Below are positions 42,411-62,921 of a stretch of DNA of 64,000 bases, piece after piece (within the stretch, counting starts at the first letter, position 1; each line of letters starts with the position of its first letter). The translations under genes were made by a program, and so were the position numbers. The DNA is taken from assembly GCA_025617375.2 (NCBI GenBank), contig JAMYGW020000001.1, positions 2,914,001 to 2,978,000 on the forward strand. The letters are read 5' to 3'. The notes beneath the pieces are model-generated. The model saw nothing but the letters and a program-made list of their open reading frames with translations, made no database searches and had not been told where the DNA came from. This DNA is from Acarospora socialis (lineage: Eukaryota > Ascomycota > Lecanoromycetes > Acarosporales > Acarosporaceae).

Positions 42411-44445
42411 TTATATAATGGATAGTTTTTGTGGCTCAGACTCCCAGAATGGTGTTCTTCCATCAATCCCAACAACCATTGTGTGTATAAAAACATAGCC
42501 GAGTCTTTCATAGGTAAACGCGCGATGTTTCAACAGCTTCAAGGCTAAAGCTGCTGACCGATGCACTGTGTTGCACACTAGAAGACAAAAGAAGATGCTC
42601 CCATAGGGTTGGGGAGCAGTATCGAATCTTATGAAACCAATAGGTTGCTCATCCAGTGTGTATATATCTGTACCCTGTCCCAAGTATGACGTGTTCCTCA
42701 GAGGTTCTGGAGTATAAACAACTTGGATGAGCTGGCCCTCAATTTGCAATTGAGCACCGGTAATATCCCCATAGGGATTGAGCCCTGTCAGTTGATAAGA
42801 CAATTCAATCACTTTGCAGCAGCTGTCAAGTGTCATCGACCTTTCCATTGTGGAATTCCAAAAGTGTACCGTACTCTTTGAACGGGCCCATGACCAGGAC
42901 GGCAGTGTGTGTGAAATAGGTTCACTCGGCTTCGACTTATACCATAGAATTCCTGCAATAAGGTCCTCCTGCCATATGCCTGCGATGTATGTGCATCCAG
43001 TCCGCGAGTGGAAGTCTTTCGCAACTCCGGATATCGCAGGCAGCTTGTCCGAGTCAAAGGTCAAAGTCCGACGGGTGTACTCGGTGACGACACTGTACCA
43101 TTGCCAGTACCTGGCTGCTTGAGCCTGCCCATGTGCCTTGGGAATGACTACATTGAAGTCGATATATGCTTTGAATTGATGTGTATGCAGTTCATCTTGG
43201 GAAGCATCATGATGCTTACCGTCCTGACGTATAGCAGTCTTGGCGCACTCCCAGTACAACTGCTGAGATCCAAAATACAGAATACGCGGCGAAAGTAACC
43301 TTTCTTGTAACACCCATGCTCTTTTATCTAAAGGAGTTTCTCTGAGTCGCTCTGGCCGAACACTGGCGACCTCACGTACATGGAACCAGTGACCGATCCA
43401 TCCGCCGACCTGTACTCAAGGCGGCAGGCGGGAGGTTCTGCTGCCCGTGGGATGAAACAGCCTACTTCGGCGTTTGGTGCACCTCTTGCGGCGATGTTGA
43501 GATAACTGGACGCATAGATGTCGCCCATGACTGCGGACTCTTTCTCCCAATCTGTCCGCGAGTCCTGTATGATGCATAGCGCATCTATCCAAAGGTAGTG
43601 TATACCAAGTCTTCGCGCTGTGATGACAGCTTCTTGAAAAGATCTGGGTAATGAAATGAACGGGATCGATTGCTTTCTTTCCTCAAGTGTACTAGAGGTG
43701 GTGGTCAAGGGCAATTTTTCAATGACTTAATGTGAGATAGGTTCCCGTCCTTCTGCTGGAGACAAGAAGATATGGTTCCATCGACCCATCAGACTTGACC
43801 CGCGTTGGAAGTCAATGACCCGTGTTGGAAGTGATGCCTCTCTAGACCTTGGACAGGCTTCATGGTTGCATAAGCAATCTTGCAGCCACTGTGTCACAAG
43901 CTCGAAGTCCTCATCAGAGCCCGCAACCTGAAGTAAGGCCTACCACTTATTCCGCCATGCCACGCCGCAGGATCGTCTGAACACATCAGCTACTGAGGTC
44001 ACAGACCTTGACAGCAGATTGGACAGATACCTGAATAGGCGTATAAATCGACTACCACATCTACCCCTATGTGATGGTCGGGATGCATGATCGGATCTGA
44101 AGGGGCATCCTCATCTGACGCCGCAGAAGATGGTGAAGAGGGAACCGAGCCTGTTGTGGTGACATGGATGCGGTCAAGCGTGCGTCCAGGTCCACCCCAG
44201 GCAACGAGTGAGATTTCTCGACCAGGATACCGCTCCGAACCATGGGACAAGGCAGCGCGATAGCCGTCTTCTCCCTTCGAGACTCCTTGTTCTAGAGCTA
44301 TCTATAAGAAGTTGCAGAGCTGGCAGCCGTTTTCGGCCGATCTCCTTAGCGTAAGAAAGCTTGGTTGATGGCGCTGCATCCGATCGAGCTCGGGGCCGCG
44401 TATTTGGTCAAGGGATAAAGCTTGGCAGAAGGAGCAAAGAGCCAT
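42411..44445 (-). pseudogene. HET-domain heterokaryon-incompatibility gene, broken
   Basis: HET-domain proteins trigger cell death when genetically unlike hyphae fuse. The whole length of such a gene can be followed on the minus strand. It begins with a CSFCQALSLDQIRGPEL N-terminal segment and the HQPSFLTLRRSAENGCQLC motif. The HET domain follows (SFQEAVITARRLGIHYLWID, then ALCIIQDSRTDWEKESA and MGDIYASSYLNIAARGAP), then PLDKRAWVLQERLLSPRIL. A long C-terminal part ends FWESEPQKLSII. At least one ordinary intron is visible. The locus appears broken in about three places and one conserved HET core motif is lost, so it is read as a relic rather than an active gene. It appears fairly young because most of the text is still legible. 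Confidence 0.8.
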
Positions 44446-47616: not shown

Positions 47617-49513
47617 TGCGTTGGTTCAATGCCTGAGGCAGTAGTAGCATCAAAGAAGGCTCTCTGTGACAGTCACGGCTGTCAATCGCGTAGAACATAA
47701 TGGTTACGAAGGTTACATACCGAGAATGAAGACAATTGATTCAGGAAGAGGGAACACAAGGAACGGAAACAATGTGCTGCTGTACCAAAGAGGCAGTAGT
47801 AACACGAGACCCGCGGTCGAGAGAGATCGAGGTCAGTAAGAGCAAAAGAGGCCGCACCGCGAGACCCACCAGCGGTCAGATTGGAATGTCTGGTGGAGGT
47901 ATATTCGGACCCGTACACTCTTGGCGTGTATTCGGGGAGACGCGACGTGAGAAGCTAAGGTTGAACAAGCGACTTCGTACTTTTATGCAACCGATGACGT
48001 TACTATTTTCGTATTTCCATTCACTCCGCCAGAGATTCAGGCAACTGGATGCTGTGAATACTCTGCGTAGTGACACTATTCGTGATCCCGTCAGAGACGA
48101 ATCTCGAGATTTACGGCGACTTGATTGTCCAGCCACTTAAGGCAGGCAGAAGCGCCGTCTCGACTTCGGCTTGCCGAAGCATAACCGGAACTCCACATCA
48201 TAACTTCCTCGTACTGGCCCAGCCACCTCGGACTCACGATGCATAACTACGCGCCGACGAGACACTTTTCGGAAATAAGTGAGATCCACATGGATCTTCC
48301 AAGTTTGACTCCAGCATCCTCACCAGAACAAATCTCGTCGACTTGGCCTCCACCATCATTGAGTGGATCCTGCTCTGCCCACCGTGATCACGGGAGCTCG
48401 GGTTGCATCCTGGCTGCTCCAGACATCGTGAGCCATCGTAAGGTAGCCATCGAGAGCATTGCGAAAGCGATAGCAGCAGGACTCGTAGCATACATAAGGC
48501 CTCTCACCGTGCAACATACTGGAAGAAGGGAATCGGTACCCAAAAGTAAAGCGGGGTCCTCGACTGTCACATGACTGCGTGTGTTGAACCATCTTTCATC
48601 GCGGCGACCTATTCGACATCACATCGTAAAAGATGGTAGAAAAATTCTATTCAAGCCAGCCATGGCTTGGACTAAGATTTCTTCAAGTCGGAAGATCTCA
48701 AAAGCTCTAGGATTCTACCCAGTCGAGATACCTTACTGCTTTGAGCTCAGAAATCTTCTTTCTCACTAGCGATTTGGTAATATAGGGAAACCATGGCAGT
48801 CCACGTCCACGCCCACCAGTCTCAAAGTGCGACATAACCTCTACAAGAGATGGGACTACCTTATCTTTGCTCTCCAGCATGTGGCTAGATGATAGTCAGA
48901 CAGTGCCTCTTCGCCTTATCAACACCATTACCCCTAGTACCTGTCATACATTTCCATCCATGCCCTGCTGTTCGGGGCTGAAACCGTGGGGGCCTACCTA
49001 TACATACAGCATGCACGATTATCTGCTCTTCCGGCATCCTTCCTATCTGTTCTCTTTCTCTAACTTGATTGCGTCTCGAGTTGGTAGCGTCAAAGGCCTC
49101 GTACTTGTACGACTGGTACTGGATTTGTCTGCATCTCCCGCCTCACGCTAACTGCTTTCGGAGCTTATAGATAAGGAATCCTGGACGATGCCCATACAGG
49201 TCCTCTGATCCACAGGGCTACTTTTGGTGTCTTCTGCTTACGATCTGGACCAGCCACCTCCGCGGCTGCTTTATCTTCAGCAACTCATGTCTATTCTTTT
49301 TTTTCTCTTACCCCATATCATCTGCCTGGTTGGCTTGCAGCTGGAGGATGACGCTGTTCGAGAGATCCTTGCGCCCAATGCGCACCTTGTGCCTTTACTC
49401 TTACACTATGCTCTTGACTCTTAATTGCTTACATTTGGTGCTTCGCTATTTCCTCGATGAAAGTTGCTTTCGCTTTGTACATATTCTAATACATCTGATT
49501 ATTGAGACGAAGT
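47617..49513. promoter_or_regulatory. Divergent spacer with the niaD promoter
   Basis: 1.9 kb between the FHA gene and niaD, with no supported gene. The niaD-proximal 650 bp hold several GATA cores as AGATAA or its complement TTATCT (48861-48866, 49169-49174 and 49271-49276) and a plain GATAA core as TTATC at 48916-48920. These are AreA/NIT2-type sites for nitrogen catabolite control. The NirA-type site is listed separately. Confidence 0.6.
49258..49265 (+). promoter_or_regulatory. NirA/NIT-4-type binding site CTCCGCGG
   Basis: A perfect match to the CTCCGHGG consensus of the nitrate-specific Zn2Cys6 activator NirA, 249 bp before the niaD ATG and 5 bp from a GATA core (TTATCT). Pairing of a NirA site with a GATA site is the arrangement known from Aspergillus nitrate genes. 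Confidence 0.7.
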
Positions 49514-52360
49514 ATGGAAGACCCAGGGTCACAGAGCGCCCATGACATAGACATTATTCAGAAGCACGAAGAGCTTCCACCGTCCCCGCCGGACACAGAT
49601 GAGAACGGATCCGAGGATAGCTTCCATCCAGACCATGCCGACATCCCCCTACCACCGCCAACTACCATTCCGGAGAAAGTTCTTGACCTTGACAAGAAGA
49701 CACCAGACGCACACGTACCCCGTGATCCCCGATTGATTCGTTTGACGGGAGTACATCCTTTCAATGTCGAAGCCCCTCTTTCTGCCCTTTTCAACGAGGG
49801 CTTTCTCACTAGTCCGGAGCTGTTCTATGTTAGAAATCATGGAGCAGTTCCTAACGTCGATGAGGAAGATATTCCAGACTGGACTTTTACCGTGGAAGGG
49901 TAAAATCTGCATCCATGACTTGTTTATAATTCATAGCTGATGGCGCGCTAGGCTTGTTGAGAGGCCTCTAGCGATTAGTCTTAGGCGTCTCATCTCCGAT
50001 TACAAGCAGATAACATGCCCTATAACGCTTGTTTGTGCTGGTAATAGACGAAAGGAGCAAAATCAAGTTTACAAGAGCAAGGGCTTCTCTTGGGGCCCTG
50101 CTGGCGTCTCAACTGCTCTATTCACAGGCGTGGCAATGTCGGAGCTGATCAAGAAGGCCAAGCCAAAGCGACGCGCAAGGTTCGTGTGCATGGAAGGAGC
50201 AGACAAACTTGTATGCACGAGGAATCCGTTTAGGAACGATGAAAGCTGACGGAGCAGTAGCCTAATGGATATTACGGGACTTCTGTCAAGCTGAATTGGG
50301 TGATGGACCCCAATAAGGGTATGATGCTGGCATATAAGATGAACGGGGAGATGTTGAGGCCGGATCACGGCAAGCCTTTGCGAGCGGTCATACCGGGACA
50401 GATTGGAGGTAGAAGCGTGAAATGGCTGAAGAAGCTGATCATCACTGACGTCCCGAGTGATAACTGGTACCATATATACGACAACCGAGTGTTACCGTAT
50501 GTAAACTGGGTGTTACCCAGAGAAGGGATTTCGAGGCGCTTACGGATGATAGGACCATGATTTCTCCCGAAGAATCCGCGAACAACCCGAAATGGTGGAC
50601 AGACGATCGTTATGCTATCTACGAACTCAGCGTCAACTCGGCTATAGCGTATCCGGCCCATGAGGAACAGTTGTGCATTGTCAACGGCCCGGAAACTTAC
50701 CGAACAAGAGGCTACGCATATGGTGGTGGTGGCCGTCGAGTAACTCGCGTGGAGATCTCTATCGATAAAGGCCGCTCTTGGAGGCTTGCAGATATCGAGT
50801 ACGCCGAGGACCGGTATCGAGACGTAGACCAAGACCTGTTTGGCGGGAAACTGGACATGTCATGGCGTGAGAGCTGTTTCTGCTGGTGTTTCTGGTCCTT
50901 AGACATACCGGTATCTGAACTCAAGGAGGCGGCGGATATCATGGTACGCGCGATGGACGAGAGCATGAATGTCCAGCCAAGGGATATGTATTGGAGTGTT
51001 CTGGGTATGATGAACAATCCATGGTTCCGTGTCACGATCAGTCAGGAAGGGGATTATTTACGCTTCGAGCATCCAACACAGCCTGCCCTACAGCCTGGCG
51101 GATGGATGGAGAGAGTCAAGAAAGCGGGCGGGAACCTCAGCAACGGGTACTGGGGCGAGAGAATCGGGGGTGAAGATACCGAGGCGCCAGTGAGTGAGGA
51201 AGCGAAGGAAGTCAAAATGACTAAAGATGGGTTGAAAAGAACCATCACGATTGATGAGCTACGGAAACATGATAACGATGAGAATCCATGGTTTGTGATA
51301 AATGGGGAGGTTTACGATGGCACGGCGTTCATGAAGGAGCATCCAGGAGGGGCGCAGAGCATTGTTTCCGCAGCCGGCATGGATACGAGTGATGAGTTTC
51401 TCGCTATTCGTAAGCTGCTCTAAGAGGATTACGAAGTTAAAAAGCGCTAACAAACTTCTAGACAGCGAGACTGCCAAAGCTATGATGCCAGGCTACCATG
51501 TGGGCACTCTCGACGAAGCCTCCAAACTTGTCCTCAGCGAAGGCGAAGTCCAGGAGTCTGCTGACTCGTCGATATGCCGCTCGACTTTCCTTCAGCCGAG
51601 AGCGTGGACTAAAGCGGTGCTCTGTCAGAAGAAGACAGTCTCCTGGGATACGCGCATCTTTACTTATAGACTTGAGCACGAGGATCAAACCCTTGGTCTG
51701 CCGATCGGCCAGCACCTGATGGTTCGCCTCCGCGATCCGGTGACGAGAGAAGCGATCATCAGGAGCTATACTCCGATTTCCGAGGTTAGCAAAAAGGGGT
51801 ATCTCGAGTTACTCGTTAAAGTCTATTTCGACACAGGAGAGGTCAAAGGAGGAACGATGACTAAAGCCATGGACGCGCTGCCGGTCGGTCATTCGGTCGA
51901 CTTCAAAGGCCCCATCGGGAAGTTCGAATATCTCGGGAAAGGTAACTGCGTTATCAGCGGCTCACCTAAGCACGTTCGGTCCTTCGTCATGATTTGCGGT
52001 GGCAGCGGCATCACTCCAATATTCCAAGTCTTCCGAGCCGTAATGCAAGACAAAGACGATCGAACGAAATGCGTCGTGTTCGATGGGAACAGACTGGCAG
52101 AGGACATACTTTGCAAAGAAGAACTGGACGCGTTGGCCCTCGGGAATGAGGACAGGTGCAAGTTGCTCTACACTCTTACGAAGGGCACCGAAGAGTGGAT
52201 CGGATTGCGGGGGAGGATCTCGGGGGAACTGGTCAAAGCGCATTGCACGAAGAACGATGATACTTTGGTCTTGATCTGTGGGCCTGAGGCGTTGGAAAAG
52301 AGCATTCATGTTGCGCTGCTCGAACAGGGCTGGAGAGACGAGCAGCTTTTGTTTTTCTAG
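49514..52360 (+). CDS. niaD: Assimilatory nitrate reductase (NADPH)
   Basis: NiaD reduces nitrate to nitrite in the cytosol with NADPH, using molybdopterin, heme and FAD. Model: join(49514..49899,49952..50210,50261..50496,50553..51409,51462..52360), 878 aa, normal size. The sulfite-oxidase-like molybdenum domain includes PELFYVRNHGAVP and PITLVCAGNRR, whose Cys157 is the likely Mo ligand, followed by GFSWGPAGVSTA. The dimerisation domain has VTRVEISIDKGRSW. A cytochrome b5 domain carries heme ligands His557 (EHPGGAQ) and His580, the latter encoded across the last intron. The FAD domain has RSYTPIS, and the NADPH domain has GGSGITPIFQVFR and CGPEALE. The acidic N-terminal extension is about 100 residues. 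The gene is followed head-to-tail by niiA and is probably controlled by GATA and NirA sites upstream. Confidence 0.97.
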
Positions 52361-53125
52361 GGCTTAACCATCGTAGCTTTTAATTTAGGTACGAAGTACA
52401 GTAGATAAGTTGAATATAAGCCTGTTTCGGGTAGTGCATAGTCGGTACCACTAGCAAGCATGCTCATATGAATCTCTTGGATCCAAGCCCGTCAGTTCCG
52501 GAGAAGCAGAAGAAAAGTGCTCAACGAGTGTATGGTAACTTTCTAAGATAGGTTTCGATAGCCCTCGGACGGACACATTCTTCGACCCGCACTAGCGTCG
52601 AATGCTTATCGCAACCACACGACAGCCCACTCGGAATTCAACGACGAGTCTCATCCTTATCAGCTGCTAAAAACAACAGTGCATGTGCCTTATCTCTGGC
52701 GCCACCGTGGAGATGCCCAAGACTTTGGTGGCTGTGGCTGATTTACACAGACTCGTAGCAGGGGTATCGATAAGGGGCATGTCGATAATGGGACGCAGAT
52801 ACGGTACGAAGTCGGAGGACAGTAGACCCGGCAGGAGATACGCGAAAATCCTTGCGGCCAACTGTGGGGACTTGTGTCCACCGACTTCGTACCTCATGGC
52901 TTTCTCCGGGACCGCGGTGATGCTTGGGGGCAAGGCTTGCGTGGGTGGTGGGCAGGGAGGCTGAATGTGGTTCTTGGTGGACTTTTGCTTGCTTCGTGTC
53001 TCTTCAGTGACTTTCACGATTCAATCACTTTGGTGTTTTTCTATCATTCGAATTGCCATGCTGTCATCTCTTGACCATTTACCCTTCTTCTGATCCATAT
53101 TGAGGTATTTCAGTACCTTGCAATT
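52361..53125. promoter_or_regulatory. niaD-niiA intergenic promoter
   Basis: 765 bases. At least five GATAA cores: GATAAG at 52404-52409 and 52769-52774, and its complement CTTATC at 52605, 52656 and 52689. These fit AreA/NIT2 control of niiA. I found no perfect CTCCGHGG; the closest is CTCCGGGA near 52904. The open frames on the minus strand here are not convincing. Confidence 0.6.
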
Positions 53126-56100
53126 ATGTCTTGGGCTGAGTCTTCGCCGGGGATGATGGCAGGCCAGACGCCGGTCAATGGCCATCATCCCGAGGAAGAC
53201 GGAGAGCAGTACCCTTTGCCGCAGAGCAAGAGGAAGAATGTCGTGGTTGTGGGGCTGGGAATGGTTGGGATTGCCTTCATGTTCGTCTTCTGAGATAGTC
53301 GCGGTGCGGGAGGATGGCTGACGAAAATGTCTCCAGAGAGAAGCTCACGAAGCTGGACGCCAAGCGACGTGAATACAATATCATAGTCATCGGAGAAGAG
53401 CCTTACCTAGCATATAACCGTGTGGGACTCACGAGTTTCTTTCAACACCGCAAGGTTGAAAACCTGTACTTGAACCATCAAGATTGGGTATGCCACCTGC
53501 TCTTACATCCAGACGATAAAGCGAAGTGGGTCTGTTAACCTTGTGCGGGAGTTGCAGTATGCTGGCAAGTCGGAAGCGTTGAACTATCACCTCAACACCA
53601 TAGTCACCGAGATCCATCCTGATTCGAAGGTGGTATCGACTTCCAAAGGCGATACCGTTCCCTACGACATCCTGGTGCTAGCCACTGGCTCTGACGCTGT
53701 CGTTCCACGACATACACCTGGCCATGATGCCAAAGGTGTATTTGTCTATCGGACGATCGACGATTTGCAGAAGTTAATATCATACTCCGCAACGGTAAAT
53801 GGCTCGACCGGCGCCGTGGTCGGTGGAGGGCTTCTCGGGTTAGAAGCGGCGAAGGCGATGATGGATTTGGAAGAGTTCAAGCACGTCAAGCTCATCGAAC
53901 GGAATCGCTGGGTTTTATCGAGGCAGCTGGATGGGGATGCCGGAGGGATGGTCGTCGACCTTGTTCGACAGCTTGGATTGGACGTTCTGCTAAGCAAAAG
54001 AGTTGGCAAAATAGAGGTCGATGAGGAGAACACGGTCAAAGGCGTCGTGTTCGAGGATGGAGAAAAGATGGACTGCAGGTGTTTGATGTTCGCCATTGGT
54101 ATCAAGCCGAGAGATGAGCTTGCAAGAAAGGCGGGTATCAAATGTGCTGATAGAGGTGGTGGGATAGTCATTCACGCCGACCTCTCGTCAAGTACATCGG
54201 ACATCTATGCTATTGGCGAGTGTGCCAGCTGGGAGAATCAAACGTATGGTTTGATTGCGCCGGGCATCGAAATGGCTGATGTACTGGCATTCAACCTAAC
54301 GCAAGCTAAGGTTCACGCACCACGGAAGTTTAAGAGGCCTGATCTGAGCACCAAGTTGAAGTTATTGGGTGTAGAAGTTGCTAGCTTTGGTGATTTCTTC
54401 GCCGATCGGGATGGGCCAAAGGACCTGCCTGTGAGGCTCCATGGAGTAAAGAAAGACGACAAAGGAAAGGGCGAAAATGCAGTGAAGAACTTCACAGATG
54501 GCCCTCCACCACCGCCGGTCAAGGCGCTCACATACAAGGACCCGTTCCAGGCAGTGTACAAGAAGTATCTGTTCACCTTGGATGGAAAGTATCTGCTTGG
54601 TGGCATGATGATTGGCGACACCAAGGACTACGTCAAGCTGGTACCTATGGTGAAGAATCAGAAGCCATTGGAGGTACCACCGAGCCAGTTCATTCTCGGC
54701 ACTACCAAAGAAGGCGAAGATGATGCCGATGACTTGACAGACGACACACAGATATGCTCCTGCCACAACGTCACTAAAGGGGACGTTGCTAAGGTAGTCA
54801 AGGATGGCACTTGCAAGAGTATTGGGGATGTCAAGTCGTGTACGAAGGCGGGTACAGGATGCGGTGGTTGTATGCCACTTGTGCAGACCATCTTCAACAA
54901 GGAGATGAAAGCCATGGGCGCTGAAGTCCTTAACCATCTATGTCCGCATTTCGAACATTCCCGAGCCGATCTTTTCAATATCATTTACGTGAAGAAGCTG
55001 AAAACGTTCTCTGATGTCATGAAAGACTGCGGCAAACACCCCGAAGCTCTGGGTTGCGAAGCTTGCAAACCAACCATAGCCTCTATCTTGGCTTCACTGT
55101 ACAACCAACATATCCTCGATAAACCTCTACATGGCTTGCAAGACACCAATGACAGGTTCCTGGCCAATATCCAGCGGAATGGTACCTTCTCTGTTATTCC
55201 GCGAGTTGCTGCTGGCGAGATCACGCCCGAAAAGCTGATCGTCATCGGTACCGTGGCGAAGAAGTACGGTTTGTACTGCAAGATCACGGGTGGCCAGCGC
55301 ATCGATATGTTTGGCGCGAAGAAGCAGGACCTCGTCGATATCTGGACCGCATTAGTCAATGCAGGGATGGAGTCCGGCCACGCCTACGCCAAGTCTCTCC
55401 GTACTGTCAAATCCTGCGTAGGCACGACATGGTGTCGATTCGGTATCGGTGACAGCGTGGGCATGGCTGTCAGACTCGAAGAGCGGTACAAGAGTATACG
55501 AAGCCCGCACAAGATGAAGGGCGGCGTTTCCGGTTGCGTTAGAGAGTGTGCGGAAGCCCAGAACAAGGACTTTGGCCTTATTGCTACCGAGAAAGGCTTC
55601 AACATCTTTGTCGGTGGAAACGGCGGCGCGAAACCACGACACTCCGAACTCTTAGCTAAGGATGTTCCCCCTGATGATGTTATACCCATCCTGGATCGCT
55701 ATCTGATGTTTTATATGCGCACCGCGGACAAGCTGCAGAGGACGGCACGGTGGGTCGAACAATTACCGGGAGGCATTAAATATCTACAAGAGGTCATCTT
55801 GCAAGACAAGTTAGGTCTTTGCGCCGAGTTAGAGAAACAGATGGAAGAGCTAATTGGCACATTCTTCTGCGAATGGACTGAAGTGATCAACAACCCTGAA
55901 CGTCGGAAGGCGTTCCAACAGTTTGACAACACGAGCGAAACTGCCGAGACGGTGGAAAGAGTGGAGGAGAGAGGGCAACAAAGACCCACATACTGGCCCA
56001 AGGACAGCGTTACGGAAGATTTCCGAGGCACGAAGTGGAGCAGTCTATCATGGCAACCCATCATCGAGAGCAAGACCATCGTCGACAGACCCACCGGCGC

Positions 56101-56599
56101 AAGCGCCAACGTCAAGAGAGGCGACACTCAATTAGCCATCTTCAAAGTCAAAGGCAAATGGTACGCGACGCAGCAAATGTGTCCGCACAAACGAACCTTC
56201 GCCCTCTCGGACGGCCTGATCGGCGACGACACGGACAAGAACCGACTCTGGGTCTCCTGCCCCTTCCACAAGCGCAACTACACGCTGAACGGCGACGACG
56301 CGGGCAAATGCAGCAACGACGACAACGTCAGCATCGCTACCTTCCCCGTCGAGGAGCGGGACGACGGCTGGGTGTATTTGAAGCTGCCGCCGGTCGAGGA
56401 GCTGGATGCGGTGTTGGGGACGAAGAAGTGGCTCGTCAAGAAGGAGGAAACGCCCAGTCCGTTTACGAAGTTGGATCAGAAGCTCAAGGGCTTGAAGGGG
56501 AGGCAGCCGTTTGGGGATAGTCATTTGCCGAATGGGTTGGGGGAGAAGAGGGCTGCGCAGGCGATTACGGCGGGGGGCAATGGGGGGATAGACTGGTAG
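53126..56599 (+). CDS. niiA: Assimilatory nitrite reductase [NAD(P)H]
   Basis: NiiA reduces nitrite to ammonium with six electrons from NAD(P)H through FAD, iron-sulfur centres and siroheme. Model: join(53126..53280,53337..53487,53558..56599), 1115 aa. The FAD/NAD(P)H oxidoreductase half starts [19 protein letters not shown] and has [14 protein letters not shown] and [19 protein letters not shown]-like [2Fe-2S] segment with [10 protein letters not shown] lies near residue 502. Two sulfite/nitrite reductase half-domains follow. The siroheme-[4Fe-4S] Cys pairs are in [10 protein letters not shown] (about residue 722) and [15 protein letters not shown] (about 761). The C terminus carries a Rieske-like domain (CPHKRT and CPFHKRN), as in fungal NiiA. 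The exon 1/2 junction restores [19 protein letters not shown]. It follows niaD on the same strand. Confidence 0.97.
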
Positions 56600-57298: not shown

Positions 57299-60200
57299 AT
57301 GTCAAGGAAGGCCTTTGACCTTACATACTCCCCATCGCCAACTACTGGTGTGCGCAGCGGAAGTAGTCGAGACGTAAAAGGAAAGCCTCCCGTACCGTCC
57401 GAAAGCCTTAAATGCAGAGCGTGCCGTGCAACCAAGAGTAAATGTGATATGGGAAAGCCCAGCTGCCAGCGCTGTCGCGAATATGGTCTCCAATGCGAAA
57501 CTCTGGAACCTGGTCGGCCTGTCTCTGATGATGTCTTTATTCTCGTTATGGGTGCTACGGGGTCTGGCAAAACTTCTTTCATCAATCAATGTGTGGGCTC
57601 TCAAGTCCTCCAAGTGGGTCACGGTCCTGAATTGTGTAAGCTCCGGATTCCCCTTAACCCTAATCGTTGGCTGATTGGGCCCAAGATACATCTGCTATCG
57701 CTGAGGCAATATTCGAACTTGATGCCAAGAAGATTCACCTTGTAGATACGCCAGCCTATGATGTTCGCTCTTCAAGCTCTCGGGAGGTCACGGACTGGTT
57801 AACATTGGCGTACGGCATCCATACAGAAGTGAACGGTGTAGTGTACATGCACCGCATTCCCGACAGTGATATACTTCAAGCTGTTCTGGCTTGCCATTTC
57901 ATTGCTGCAAACTTGTTGGGAAAGAAAGAGTTCTTAAATATTGCGTTTGTAACAACGATGTGGGATGAAGTAGACGAGGAGACTGGACAGGCAAGAGAGC
58001 TGGAAATTTCTTCTCGGTATCTAAAGCCTTTTTTACTCGAAAAAGGTAGCTCTATGTACCGACATGATGGTACGGAAGCCTCTGCGCTCGGGATTGTCAG
58101 TTCGTTGAATTCTGGCAAGAGAGTCAAGTTGTTACACCACCGTGAGTTCGTCAACGAAGCTCGACTGCTTGCATGCTAAGACGAAAGTAGAAGCCCAAAT
58201 CGAGCAACAAGAGCTACAAGTGGCTCACAAAGAGTTTGATCCGAGCGCTTCAAAAATAACACACTTGGGGGACTTCAAGCTCGATCCTCTCAGTGGTATC
58301 GATTCGCCATAACTCGTGTGCACACTTACCAAGCTGACGTTGAAGGTCCCCTACCACCCTCCAAGAGATCGAGCTCGATCGAACAAAGGCAACGAAAACT
58401 TGAAGTCCATACCAGTGACAGTGAAGACGCAGCCGATGGCTTCAAGCCAAACCTGGCGCGAAATCAGAACCGATCAAGAGCAAATGAAACCGGGACTTCG
58501 AAGCGCGAAATCGGGACGAGATATGCGGAAATCAGATCCAGGCAGCTTCGTCGACGAGCCTTACACGAAGAGCGAGTTGCCTTACGAGCGGAAATCTACC
58601 GGACTAGTCTGCACGCATTGAGAAGTCGCCTTCTTCAATATGCATCATCCGACAGCCTAGGAGAACAGATACACAAGGAACTCAAGACCTTGGAAGAAAA
58701 TATAGGTACATCCATCAGCAGTCAAAACAGCGGAACAGTCCAAAATCTGGACTTTAACGCTCAAAGTCCCAAGTTTCCAATTGACAAGGGCATCCAGGAT
58801 GTATTACACGACGAGGATTTACGGAAGAGACTTGGAATCAATGCAGATTTAATCAGCCATTGCCTATACTCCAGGTTTTGGCTTTGTCGAAATTTAGGCA
58901 TCGTGGTCTACAGGAATTGCTGCCGACTGCAGACCGCCCACCTTGCCGATGGCTTCCTGAGTGCTTTAGTTCCAGCTAACTCATGGTCTGATGGTGGGCC
59001 ATGTGTTGTCAATCTCAGACGCATCCAAATTGCGGATATCGGAGCTCTCTTGGACACGCTGGCTGATTGCATTCGCAACATTTTTCACCGGGGGTTACAC
59101 ATTCTCTCTGGACAACAAGACATTCAACTTCTTGTGGAATGCCTTTTCGATATCCAAGCCAGGTCTGGAAAACTGTTCGCAAGCATAGACCCAATGGATG
59201 CTTTAGAAAGTATCAGTGCACATGACCTCAAAAGAGAACTGGAGGAAATGTATGCTGGAGGACCTCTTCAAAGCAGTTACTTGGAATCCATATTCGCTAG
59301 ATGTCGAACCACATTCCAGGCTTTGGATCTCGTCCTGCTTGCCTATGAGGGTGCTCATGTTCCGGACTTGGAAGAGCTTACACCTGACAACACTGACAAG
59401 CGTACCATTCTTCTCAATAAGGGTTTCCCTACCTTTGCTGAAGCACCAGAGATCCCAACCACCTGCTTCCGGCGCTTGCCGATGAAATGCCTTGCACCAC
59501 TTCTGGGAAACCGTGACGTTTGGGTCTTTACGCATACGAGGCTAGATTGTCCACCAGCCTTGTACTTGAAGACAGATATTGAAACATTTGCAGATGTGTG
59601 GGGTCCGGTCTGGAAGGTCAAAGATCAGCATGAGCCGGATAAGACCGCAAGATACAATGTTGGGGAAGGAACTATCATACCATGGCCCTTCGATCCTGTG
59701 GTCCATCCTACTCTCGCAACGAATGAGCGTCTATGTCACTGGAGGAGCAACTTCGATTTCATCAACAATGATGCTAGCTCTATTGACGATGGTACGTCAG
59801 TTGCGACTAGAGTAGAGAAATCTTCATCTCTGAGACTGACTCCATTCAGATTCATCGTCCACTAGCAGTGACGCAGGCGAAGATCCGACCGACGACGCCA
59901 TAAGTGGTAGATTCGACGGATCCGAGGTCCTCGTCATTGGTGCCGAATCAGGCCCGCAGCTGGAATGGAAACCCTGTAGCTGCTCCGTTGACGAGCTCAA
60001 GAAGCAGTTAAGAGAAGCAGGACGCTTGAATCACATGCTAGCGTCCAAATCCTATCGCTACGTCGATGCTCAGCAAACCTCACTAGTCGTGGGTAGCCAT
60101 GGCATCCAGGCGGGAAGAAGCAAAGTCTTCAAAGACATGAAAGAAGAACCTCTCAAGAAAGGATTGTTGGCAATGTGGGAGAATGAGCCCGAACTTCGAA

Positions 60201-61069
60201 ACCCTCGAGAGTTCGAGAACTTTTGGGGAGTGGCTGTGTCTTTATGCACGATGAACGCTCGCCGTGTGAGGCTCGTTGAGCTTCTTCGCGAGGACAGCGT
60301 TACATGTCTTTTAGAGCGCTTCCAATGGAGCGATCTCGATGCTGAAAAGAATAGCGAACGTCGCAGCTCGTTTTTCAAAGCAGTCAGCAGTGTCAATCCT
60401 TGTGCTCTGGGGGACTTGTGGGACGGTAACCCTTGCTGGCGAGAAGAACTCGGCAAAGCCCTGCTTATCTGTCTCAGGGTCCTCTCCAGAACAGGATACG
60501 ATGTCAATAGAGACGAATTCCACATGCTATGGCTTCCTAGCGGTTCCCGCGCTCCAAGACGCGTCACCTTGCGGCCCACAGACCAGAGCTGGATTAGATT
60601 CCTCAGAGACACAACATATTCCATGACCACAGCCGTGATCGTGGAACGCAGCCTCGGCGGACCATCTTGCAGCCGCAAGCGGCCGCAATGGTTTGGAGTT
60701 CCTTCGGTTCTTGAAACTGCTCTTTGCATCAACCGCACCCTCGATCCTGCACCGAAACTCAAAAGAACTCCTGGCTGCCCGGACGAAGTTAATCTGATCT
60801 CGCGGAGGGATGCGCAAAGATGGAAGCACGTCTGGAATGTGTCCGGGCTGGCCAGGGGAGAGCATCTATGGGTGGGTTCGGAGAATCGTCTGAAAGTCCT
60901 CTGGCCACTCTCGGACTGGCGTTTACTGTTGGAGGTCGACATTGTCAAAAGAGCGCTGCTTCGGGAAATGATCGGCATCAGGCCTAGCGAGCGGGTTAGT
61001 CATTGGGAGTATACTGGTGAAGAGGAGGAGCCTATCGACATACGACCGATTCCTGTGCACATCATTTGA
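57299..61069 (+). CDS. Zn2Cys6 cluster fused to a P-loop GTPase and a large C-terminal region
   Basis: Model: join(57299..57635,57686..58141,58188..58295,58334..59791,59850..61069), 1192 aa. Residues 39-66 are a canonical Zn2Cys6 cluster (C-x2-C-x6-C-x6-C-x2-C-x6-C, starting CRACRATKSKCD). Only 18 residues later, in the same exon, is a Walker A motif GATGSGKT (85-92), then HLVDTPAYD (Walker B/G3-like) near 130 and FVTTMWDEV (G4-like), as in AIG1/septin-like fungal GTPases. A coiled-coil-like Gln/Glu segment follows. The remaining 890 residues are alpha-rich, with DVWVFTHTRLDCPPALYL, ADVWGPVW and ARRVRLVELL motifs that recall a widespread uncharacterised accessory family of Pezizomycotina. The 38-nt intron joining the halves is short and is the weakest point. 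If it is wrong, the first part is a 305-residue protein ending at 58312. However, the second frame has no ATG for its first 290 codons, which favours fusion. The function is unknown; it may be a nuclear signalling or incompatibility-type protein. Confidence 0.7.
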
Positions 61070-61655
61070 CTGCTGGCGAGAAAGGGATGCCGTTGTCTAG
61101 GTGTAAGACGGGCCGGTCTAATGATAGATACAAGTTCTTCGGCGCCACTAATCAGCTCTCTCGGCGCCCTTGTCATAGAAGGCTGGCAATAACATAGTTC
61201 GTTTACGTCGTATTATGATTGGCTGTAGAAACCCCTGAAATGGGACGGTCTATATTTGGTCAAAACTCCATCTACTGCTGTTGTCTTCAAGATGGGTAAT
61301 CTGTGCCAGAGAGATAATGAAACAGCAGCAGCTGTCCGTGACGGCAAATATGCGTTCAACCACCTTCCACCCTGACCTATTCCCCTACCACCAGTCATGG
61401 AGAAGGCCAGGAACATCGACTGCCTCAAACACTAATAGTAGTCCAACTCACATGATTCTAAATAAAGTTACTGATCAATACCACTCAGATCAAATTACAT
61501 CTTTATTATGCTTGAAACAACAAAGTACGAAGGCCGCGTAAACCCTCGTCGAAAGTACATCAAATCAGACGCGTTCTGAGTAAAGGTCTTCCACCACCAC
61601 CAACCACGCCAGCCATCACAGTCACCCACCCGCTATCCCCTCCAAACCTCCAACA
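61070..61655. other. Spacer upstream of the Fta1 gene
   Basis: 586 bases with no supported gene; small frames on both strands only. Probably the 3' end of the GTPase gene and the promoter of the next gene. Confidence 0.4.
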
Positions 61656-62921
61656 ATGCCCTCACAAACCCCCTCCCCCTCAACCAGTACCGAAACAGAA
61701 GCACCACCCCACCCGCTCTACAACACCACCTACACCCTCCACCGCCTCTCCCCACTGCACCACGCTCGCACCACACGCCCCTTCCTCGCCGAAGCGACTC
61801 TCGCCCAGCACGCGCAGCGTCTCACCTCTATCCTTCGCGGCGATGTGCTGCGCGGGGTACGCGTCGGCATCGACCATCTTGATGGCGAGGTTGGCGATGA
61901 GGGGTTGGGAAGGGCGGGGGCGTTGAGGGGGTGTGAATGGACGGTCCATAAGGAGGAGGAGAGGGAGGGAGATGGAGACGGAGACACGGGACGTACGGGC
62001 AGAGGTACGGGCACGCGAACGAGGAGGAGAACGCGCAGGAGGTCAGCGGCGGTCGAAGACGAAGCGGACGAGGAGGAAGAGAGAGGCAAAGCAGCAGGCG
62101 TGCACATCGCCATCCACTACGAGAAGAGCACCTACACAGCCCTCCTCCTACGCGCTCCCGCACTCCCTACCGCAGCGCACAACTTGCAGCACACAGACGA
62201 CGAAGAAGACGAGTCCTCCAGTTATTTTCCCCTCCTCCTAACGCGTATGCCCGCTTCCCTGCGCGCGACGCTCGTTACGTATCTAGCCAGCACGTTCGAC
62301 TGTCGGGTCTCGGCGCTGAGATTGTCGTCCGGATTTGTATGCGGGGCGCTGGAGGCCTTTCTGAAGGATCTACAGGGCGGTGATGGGTCTGGATCTGGGA
62401 CTGGGATGCCGGACGTGGATGCGAAAGACATGATAAAAGACATCCACCTAACCCTCTCCTTCCCACCGCCCGTCGCGCCCTCGCTCAAGAGTCTCGACAT
62501 CGTCGTCCCTGCAGCCGATGTTGAGCGCTTCGTGAGGGCGGGGGAGAAGATTCTACGGCAGCAGGGGCGGCAGGTGGAGAATGATGCGCAACGTTCGCAA
62601 CGCCGGAAACGAAAGCGGGTGGGTGCTGATAGGGAGGATGGGGATGTGGAGGGGGAAGGAATGGGTAGGGGCCCTTTCATGGCGGCCTTGGGGCGGTATT
62701 TGGAGGCGCAGTTGGCGATGAGCGTTGGGGGTGAGGGGGTGCTGGTTGCGAGGATTGCGTGTGGGGGGTTTGTGTTGGCGGCGGAGGGGAGGGTTAGGGT
62801 TGTGGATTTGCGGCGTGGTGGTGGTGGAGATGAAGATGTAGGCCAGGATATGGGAGAGAAGGCTACGAGGGGTCTCGTGGCGCGCTTGGTGGGACGGGCT
62901 GCGGGACGGGAGGAAGGCTGA
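61656..62921 (+). CDS. fta1: Kinetochore Sim4 complex subunit Fta1 (CENP-L homologue)
   Basis: Fta1/CENP-L belongs to the inner kinetochore CCAN and pairs with Chl4/CENP-N next to CENP-A nucleosomes. Single exon, 421 aa. The N-terminal motif YNTTYTLHRLSPLHH is typical of fungal Fta1, followed by LAQHAQRLTSILRGDVLRGVRVG. A charged insert rich in Glu and Arg (about residues 100-150) is probably disordered. The core continues with FPLLLTRMPASLRATLVTYL and ASTFDCRVSALRLSSGFVCG, then DIHLTLSFPPPVAPSLKSLDIVVP, and the C terminus ends in a Gly/Asp-rich tail. The 5' part is C-rich and the 3' part G-rich, a composition that yields spurious antisense frames. Assignment is by motif memory and quite likely. 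Confidence 0.75.
   Translation: MPSQTPSPSTSTETEAPPHPLYNTTYTLHRLSPLHHARTTRPFLAEATLAQHAQRLTSILRGDVLRGVRVGIDHLDGEVGDEGLGRAGALRGCEWTVHKEEEREGDGDGDTGRTGRGTGTRTRRRTRRRSAAVEDEADEEEERGKAAGVHIAIHYEKSTYTALLLRAPALPTAAHNLQHTDDEEDESSSYFPLLLTRMPASLRATLVTYLASTFDCRVSALRLSSGFVCGALEAFLKDLQGGDGSGSGTGMPDVDAKDMIKDIHLTLSFPPPVAPSLKSLDIVVPAADVERFVRAGEKILRQQGRQVENDAQRSQRRKRKRVGADREDGDVEGEGMGRGPFMAALGRYLEAQLAMSVGGEGVLVARIACGGFVLAAEGRVRVVDLRRGGGGDEDVGQDMGEKATRGLVARLVGRAAGREEG

Follow-up and report, generated by a model that had tools for sequence, protein, structure and literature searches.

The 64,000-base window analyzed here (C1:2914001-2978000, from a genome of 31.1 Mb in 38 contigs that was searched as a whole) contains a gene fusion that is real and unusual and that is tied, unexpectedly, to an NLR encoded elsewhere in this genome. 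The presence of HET, NLR and Zn2Cys6 genes suggests a filamentous ascomycete. In one reading unit, a Zn2Cys6 cluster is followed by a P-loop GTPase-like domain, a basic linker and a long C-terminal module. Both large parts, GTPase and module, have kin elsewhere in the genome, and the module is common to three other genes, one of which encodes the NLR. The fusion is a single case in one genome. Tentatively, we read this one gene as encoding a modular sensor, in which the NLR-shared module would sense and GTPase domains would pair the Zn2Cys6 heads on DNA.

The gene model comprises five exons, which join to a protein of 1192 residues with a terminal stop codon. Its features, in window coordinates, are the following:

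57299-57635, + strand: exon 1, with start methionine, Zn2Cys6 cluster, linker and P-loop; no in-frame ATG precedes the one at 57299 in this open frame
57413-57496, + strand: Zn2Cys6 cluster, Cys39 to Cys66 (PF00172, E 6.4e-8; 2.6e-8 in the six-frame genome search)
57551-57574, + strand: Walker A motif (G1), GATGSGKT
57636-57685, + strand: intron 1, 50 bases, GTAAGC..CAAG, phase 1
57686-58141, + strand: exon 2, remainder of the GTPase-like domain
57745-57756, + strand: G3 position, DTPA replacing DTPG
57952-57966, + strand: G4-like motif TTMWD, the same in the paralogue L017
58142-58187, + strand: intron 2, 46 bases, GTGAGT..AAAG; the paralogue alignment continues once it is joined
58188-58295, + strand: exon 3, end of the GTPase region and linker
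58296-58333, + strand: intron 3, 38 bases, the least certain, with 58296-58345 as an equal alternative
58334-59791, + strand: exon 4, basic linker followed by the module's first half
58873-61066, + strand: C-terminal module, split by intron 4, start approximate
59792-59849, + strand: intron 4, 58 bases, GTACGT..TTCAG
59850-61069, + strand: exon 5, the module's second half and stop codon

In the four-intron splice model of the initial annotation, intron 3 is doubtful. By eye, the splice sites of introns 1, 2 and 4 look good. Two paralogous GTPase genes, L017 and L018, have introns predicted from their sequences that agree with intron 1 in codon and phase, and this agreement supports both the gene model and common descent. 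For intron 3, an acceptor at 58345 gives 50 bases and keeps the frame, and further in-frame pairs exist. The proteins resulting from the 38- and the 50-base version differ by four residues.

Cysteine pattern and Walker A motif had been placed in one uninterrupted exon, 18 residues apart, and this is borne out: both corresponding Pfam domains exceed their cut-offs, and 18 residues separate the last cysteine from the Walker A motif, which starts at residue 85. Between 57413 and 57574 the last AG dinucleotide is found at 57469, inside the cluster, and hence no GT..AG intron can part cluster and P-loop. The frame of exon 1 offers in-frame ATGs at 57299, 57449, 57548 and 57722. The second of these lies inside the cluster, and a start at the third would presumably cut the first strand of the G domain; every in-frame start that leaves the G domain intact thus retains at least half of the cluster. 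Codon statistics do not favor the modelled frame over the Zn cluster: in three 120-base steps this frame scored -5.4, -8.2 and 5.8, and in the middle step (57419-57538, the Zn cluster) another frame scored +4.4 against its -8.2. The 24 kb of the window used for training are, however, too little for a decision on the frame of exon 1. Among the candidates that were considered and rejected are an intron between cluster and P-loop, for which an acceptor is absent, and two separate genes, the downstream frame being without a start codon.

As anticipated by the initial annotation, the gene continues into about 890 uncharacterised C-terminal residues: in our Pfam scans, no family exceeds its cut-off in this part of the window protein or in the module. 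Judged by homology, some 700 of these residues constitute a newly recognised module, present in at least four genes whose N-termini all differ, namely Zn2Cys6-GTPase (window), ubiquitin (C11), a Cys-rich segment (C13) and hydrolase-NB-ARC-TPR (C12). A genome search with the C-terminal 892 residues retrieved C13 (E 8.9e-48), C11 (E 6.6e-7) and C12 (E 0.0095), and the homology to these copies extends over several hundred residues. In a small-database blastp the window copy matches C13, C11 and C12 from residue 485. The start of the module is set by the homology to the C13 copy, which begins at that residue; for the profile, the cut was made at residue 481. Searches starting from the C11 and C12 copies each recover all four genes, while the search from the C13 copy recovers C11 and the window gene and misses C12. 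No fifth full copy was seen among the matches listed, and with the candidates limited in the search, four genes are a lower bound.

Direct similarity between the window copy and C12 is weak (E 0.0095) and becomes firm only via C11 and the profile. When C12 is left out and a profile is built from the other three copies only (window, C13 and C11), the profile still detects residues 1237-1643 of the C12 protein with E 1.1e-21; among 500 shuffled versions of the C12 tail, the best reaches E 3.8. Scanned against 353 real frames, its own members aside, the profile reports only C12 and the second piece of C13 (2.8e-4) before E 7.9. Residues identical in all four aligned copies include those of a W-x2-VW stretch, of HW and of S-x-C-x3-ARR. 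By sequence, no credible solved structure was found for the module, the one match (E 0.15) being a designed protein. Single-sequence structure predictions for either half of the module reached pLDDT values of 34.1 and 35.6 and are useless as models. Of the pattern matches in prokaryote and viral contigs (24 and 87, respectively), none was confirmed as a module relative.

The C12 gene (L023:999-6284 and L049:4632-5511, + strand) provides the link to NLRs. Its product contains NB-ARC (3.7e-10) and TPR_12 (2.8e-62) and carries the module at the C-terminus, and the joined upstream exons match the DUF676 esterase family just over the cut-off (21.1 versus 20.3 bits). On the strength of these domains, it is a fungal NLR of the hydrolase-NB-ARC-TPR kind. 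Such a layout, sesB-like/NB-ARC/TPR, is described for fungal NLRs in the available part of PMC4986451; the C12 protein has the same layout and ends in the module. The window protein, in contrast, has a GTPase and not NB-ARC or NACHT, shows no TPR match and bears a head of the DNA-binding type. Because neither NACHT and NB-ARC nor WD40, ANK and TPR repeats match it at E up to 1 in the Pfam scan, it is not an NLR. The proposed NLR-like sensor gains indirect support from the module, which also ends the C12 protein. The genome search gave 11 NB-ARC places, 10 of them over the cut-off, and in the searches made only that of C12 carries the module. The NLR link runs through one protein, and the shared tail may be structural.

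The remaining carriers are of a different kind. The C11 gene (L022:2767-5445, + strand) starts with a ubiquitin domain (E 2e-17) that ends in LRLRGG and is followed by the module, and by analogy to other ubiquitin fusions the protein might be cleaved after GG. The C13 gene (L021:4207-7113, - strand) has a Cys-rich N-terminus and an in-frame TAA within the module, which possibly reflects an intron, an early end or decay. The C11 gene has a partial relative at C4:2300.9k (L036:1405-1686, + strand), where about 95 residues, 66% identical, cover the end of the ubiquitin-like part, without the LRLRGG end, and the stretch that follows it. A relic of 31 residues at C8:840k (L051:1830-1994, - strand) is 77% identical to the same gene. 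A separate copy of the Cys-rich segment of C13 is located at C8:1577k (L050:1545-1907, - strand; 33% over 64 residues), for which no Pfam family was found at E up to 0.01.

Since the module stands behind four different heads, one of them with a receptor-type NTPase, the simplest reading is that the module recognises or docks and that the heads differ in output. Applied to the window protein, the module would recognise a ligand or partner, and recognition would change the pairing of nucleotide-bound GTPase domains. Zn2Cys6 factors usually carry a linker and a coiled-coil dimerisation element behind the cluster, and the GTPase domain would occupy the position of this coil; the paired heads would then bind DNA and change transcription. 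G domains of the septin/AIG1 type pair through their nucleotide faces, and nucleotide-dependent pairing of the DNA heads is therefore a natural hypothesis. An extension of this reading, which we consider rather doubtful, is a receptor-to-DNA device: a single chain would combine the NLR-associated module, as the part that recognises, with a GTPase-type switch and the head of a transcription factor, and would turn a non-self or stress cue into gene regulation and not into cell death. In fungal NLRs, N-terminal domains are swapped, and the available part of PMC4986451 names lipase-like, phosphorylase, protease, kinase, HET and HeLo-type domains as well as prion motifs. If the device were real, a chain whose NLR-shared tail is preceded by a Zn2Cys6 head and by a GTPase would extend this swapping to direct transcriptional output, and the fungal NLR scheme would also gain a different nucleotide switch. 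Beyond that, the four-gene module offers a handle, as a ligand or fold found for one carrier informs the others.

The head itself resembles that of Zn2Cys6 transcription factors (PF00172) in being a clear Zn_clus domain near the N-terminus. Residues 39-68 match the family with E 6.4e-8 (33 bits, cut-off 21), a value that rules out a chance pattern of cysteines. The six cysteines, residues 39, 42, 49, 56, 59 and 66, follow the spacing C-x2-C-x6-C-x6-C-x2-C-x6-C, with R, K and K between the second and the third, and solved relatives by sequence include PPR1 (1pyi, E 2.6e-4) and PUT3 (1ajy, E 0.012). The protein differs from these transcription factors in that a P-loop GTPase replaces linker and coiled coil, and in that Fungal_trans is missing: in agreement with the initial annotation, this middle region is absent from the nine Pfam matches of the whole protein at E up to 1. 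Some zinc-cluster factors lack Fungal_trans as well.

The fusion of Zn cluster and GTPase is represented by a single gene. Although the genome has at least 68 Zn_clus matches, none of these scored places is nearer than 100 kb to any of the four further GTPases that we found (the nearest is 105 kb away) or nearer than 25 kb to the three further genes with the module. Even a loose six-Cys pattern gave no place in eight stretches around the other GTPase and module genes, L017-L020 included. A literature search over full texts returned no paper with both Zn_clus and MMR_HSR1; supplements and sequence databases may still contain such proteins. The word Zn2Cys6 does not occur in PMC9815663, PMC12258605 or PMC4986451, and no NLR based on a Zn2Cys6 cluster or a GTPase is mentioned in the available parts of these papers on fungal NLRs. 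Nor was any mention found of zinc, GTPase or DNA-binding in the available parts of PMC9815663 and PMC4986451, of Zn_clus in the former or of transcription factor in the latter.

The confinement of the cluster to one of the at least five GTPases is also what an integrated bait or a protein-binding zinc knot would look like. The protein would then be a cytosolic sensor that mimics transcription factors targeted by an invader, or binds a partner, and regulates no gene. According to the available part of PMC12258605, zinc fingers rank among the most frequent non-canonical domains that NLRs of the Sordariales carry, and roles as sensors or decoys are considered for them; however, they are C-terminal in 52 of 57 zinc-finger NLRs and of the C2H2 and treble clef types. 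The window cluster, on the contrary, is placed close to the N-terminus, like that of transcription factors, and R, K and K stand between its second and third cysteine. We regard the bait or knot as unlikely, if less so than the other alternatives.

The Pfam scan of the 1192-residue protein yielded nine families at E up to 1, two of which, Zn_clus and MMR_HSR1, exceed their cut-offs. MMR_HSR1 (PF01926) covers residues 81-167 with E 9.9e-6 (26.1 bits, cut-off 21.9) and, together with the Walker A motif, identifies a P-loop GTPase. AIG1 (PF04548; E 7.3e-4, 19.4 bits, cut-off 27), Dynamin_N, FeoB_N and the remaining families stay below. The previous label AIG1/septin-like was right as a lead, but AIG1 as a family name has to be dropped; over its cut-off, this family was not found anywhere in the genome either, as far as single exons are concerned.

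Genome searches that took residues 1-300 of the protein and L017 as queries, and in which the best candidates were scored, reveal at least five GTPase members: the window gene, L017 (C8:1277k), L018 (C7:1134.7k), L019 (C8:417k) and L020 (C2:3628k). A blastp of the window GTPase within four sequences, L019 being left out and L020 represented by one exon, gave E 1.9e-31 for L017 and 1.8e-20 for L018. Five or more homologous G domains, an intron common to three of them and a TT-x-W motif are features in accordance with fungal septin/AIG1-like P-loop GTPases, which we take to be of the TRAFAC class. Among the five found, however, Zn cluster and C-terminal module occur only in the window member, which also departs from these GTPases by DTPA at G3. 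An orthogroup set aside in a Sordariales NLR survey, OG0000027, shows overlapping MMR_HSR1, RsgA, Septin, AIG1 and Dynamin_N matches (PMC12258605, available part). Four of these five Pfam families recur in the scan of the window protein, and its GTPase family possibly belongs to this orthogroup.

In Ras-like GTPases, the glycine of G3 is required for the switch II change. The window protein does not have the DxxG motif, its G3 being DTPA, whereas L017 and L018 retain DTPG and L020 has DCPG; L019 looks degenerate at this position. Nucleotide binding by the window G domain is likely, while GTP switching and hydrolysis are uncertain, and the suggested GTP-gated regulator is unproven and has lost ground. 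The same difference favors a DNA-binding protein with a degenerate GTPase, in which the G domain would hold a nucleotide or scaffold a dimer and would not switch. An intact Walker A motif and the kept TTMWD speak against degeneration, and we consider this explanation unlikely.

The C-terminal part very probably belongs to the same gene. The downstream frame 58240-59862 is open for 541 codons, which none of 2000 base shuffles achieved throughout, and contains no Met for 318 codons, the first one occurring at 59194. Such a frame without an early Met indicates that the C-terminal 890 or so residues are spliced from upstream. An artefact or decay would instead imply that a Zn2Cys6-GTPase protein ends at the stop at 58310-58312 and that the C-terminal frame belongs to a different gene or to a remnant left by a frameshift. 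The 38 bases of intron 3 as drawn, coding statistics that are weak in places, and paralogues that have the G domain without the module would fit this. Yet the downstream frame not only lacks a Met over so long a distance but also overlaps with the GTPase frame at its start and aligns to paralogues. We therefore judge an artefact improbable, and even if it were true, the Zn2Cys6-GTPase fusion would stay.

The neighborhood holds no functional hint apart from one of low rating. Directly upstream of the window gene, nitrate-reductase-like frames (FAD/NAD part scanned) and a nitrite reductase occupy 49499-56599 (+ strand), and a gene for the kinetochore protein CENP-L follows directly downstream at 61584-62918 (+ strand; PF13092, E 6.7e-80). 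Nitrate regulators of the NirA/NIT4 type are Zn2Cys6 proteins, and the position directly after nitrite reductase, itself preceded by the nitrate-reductase-like frames, would suit a pathway-specific regulator of these assimilation genes, but in view of the missing Fungal_trans region, of CENP-L as the other neighbor, and of a GTPase and a module that to our knowledge have no link to nitrate, this is very improbable. Approximately 14 kb upstream, at 43331-43726 (- strand), a HET domain (PF06985, E 6e-21) is encoded, and the frame 42411-43415 probably continues this HET gene.
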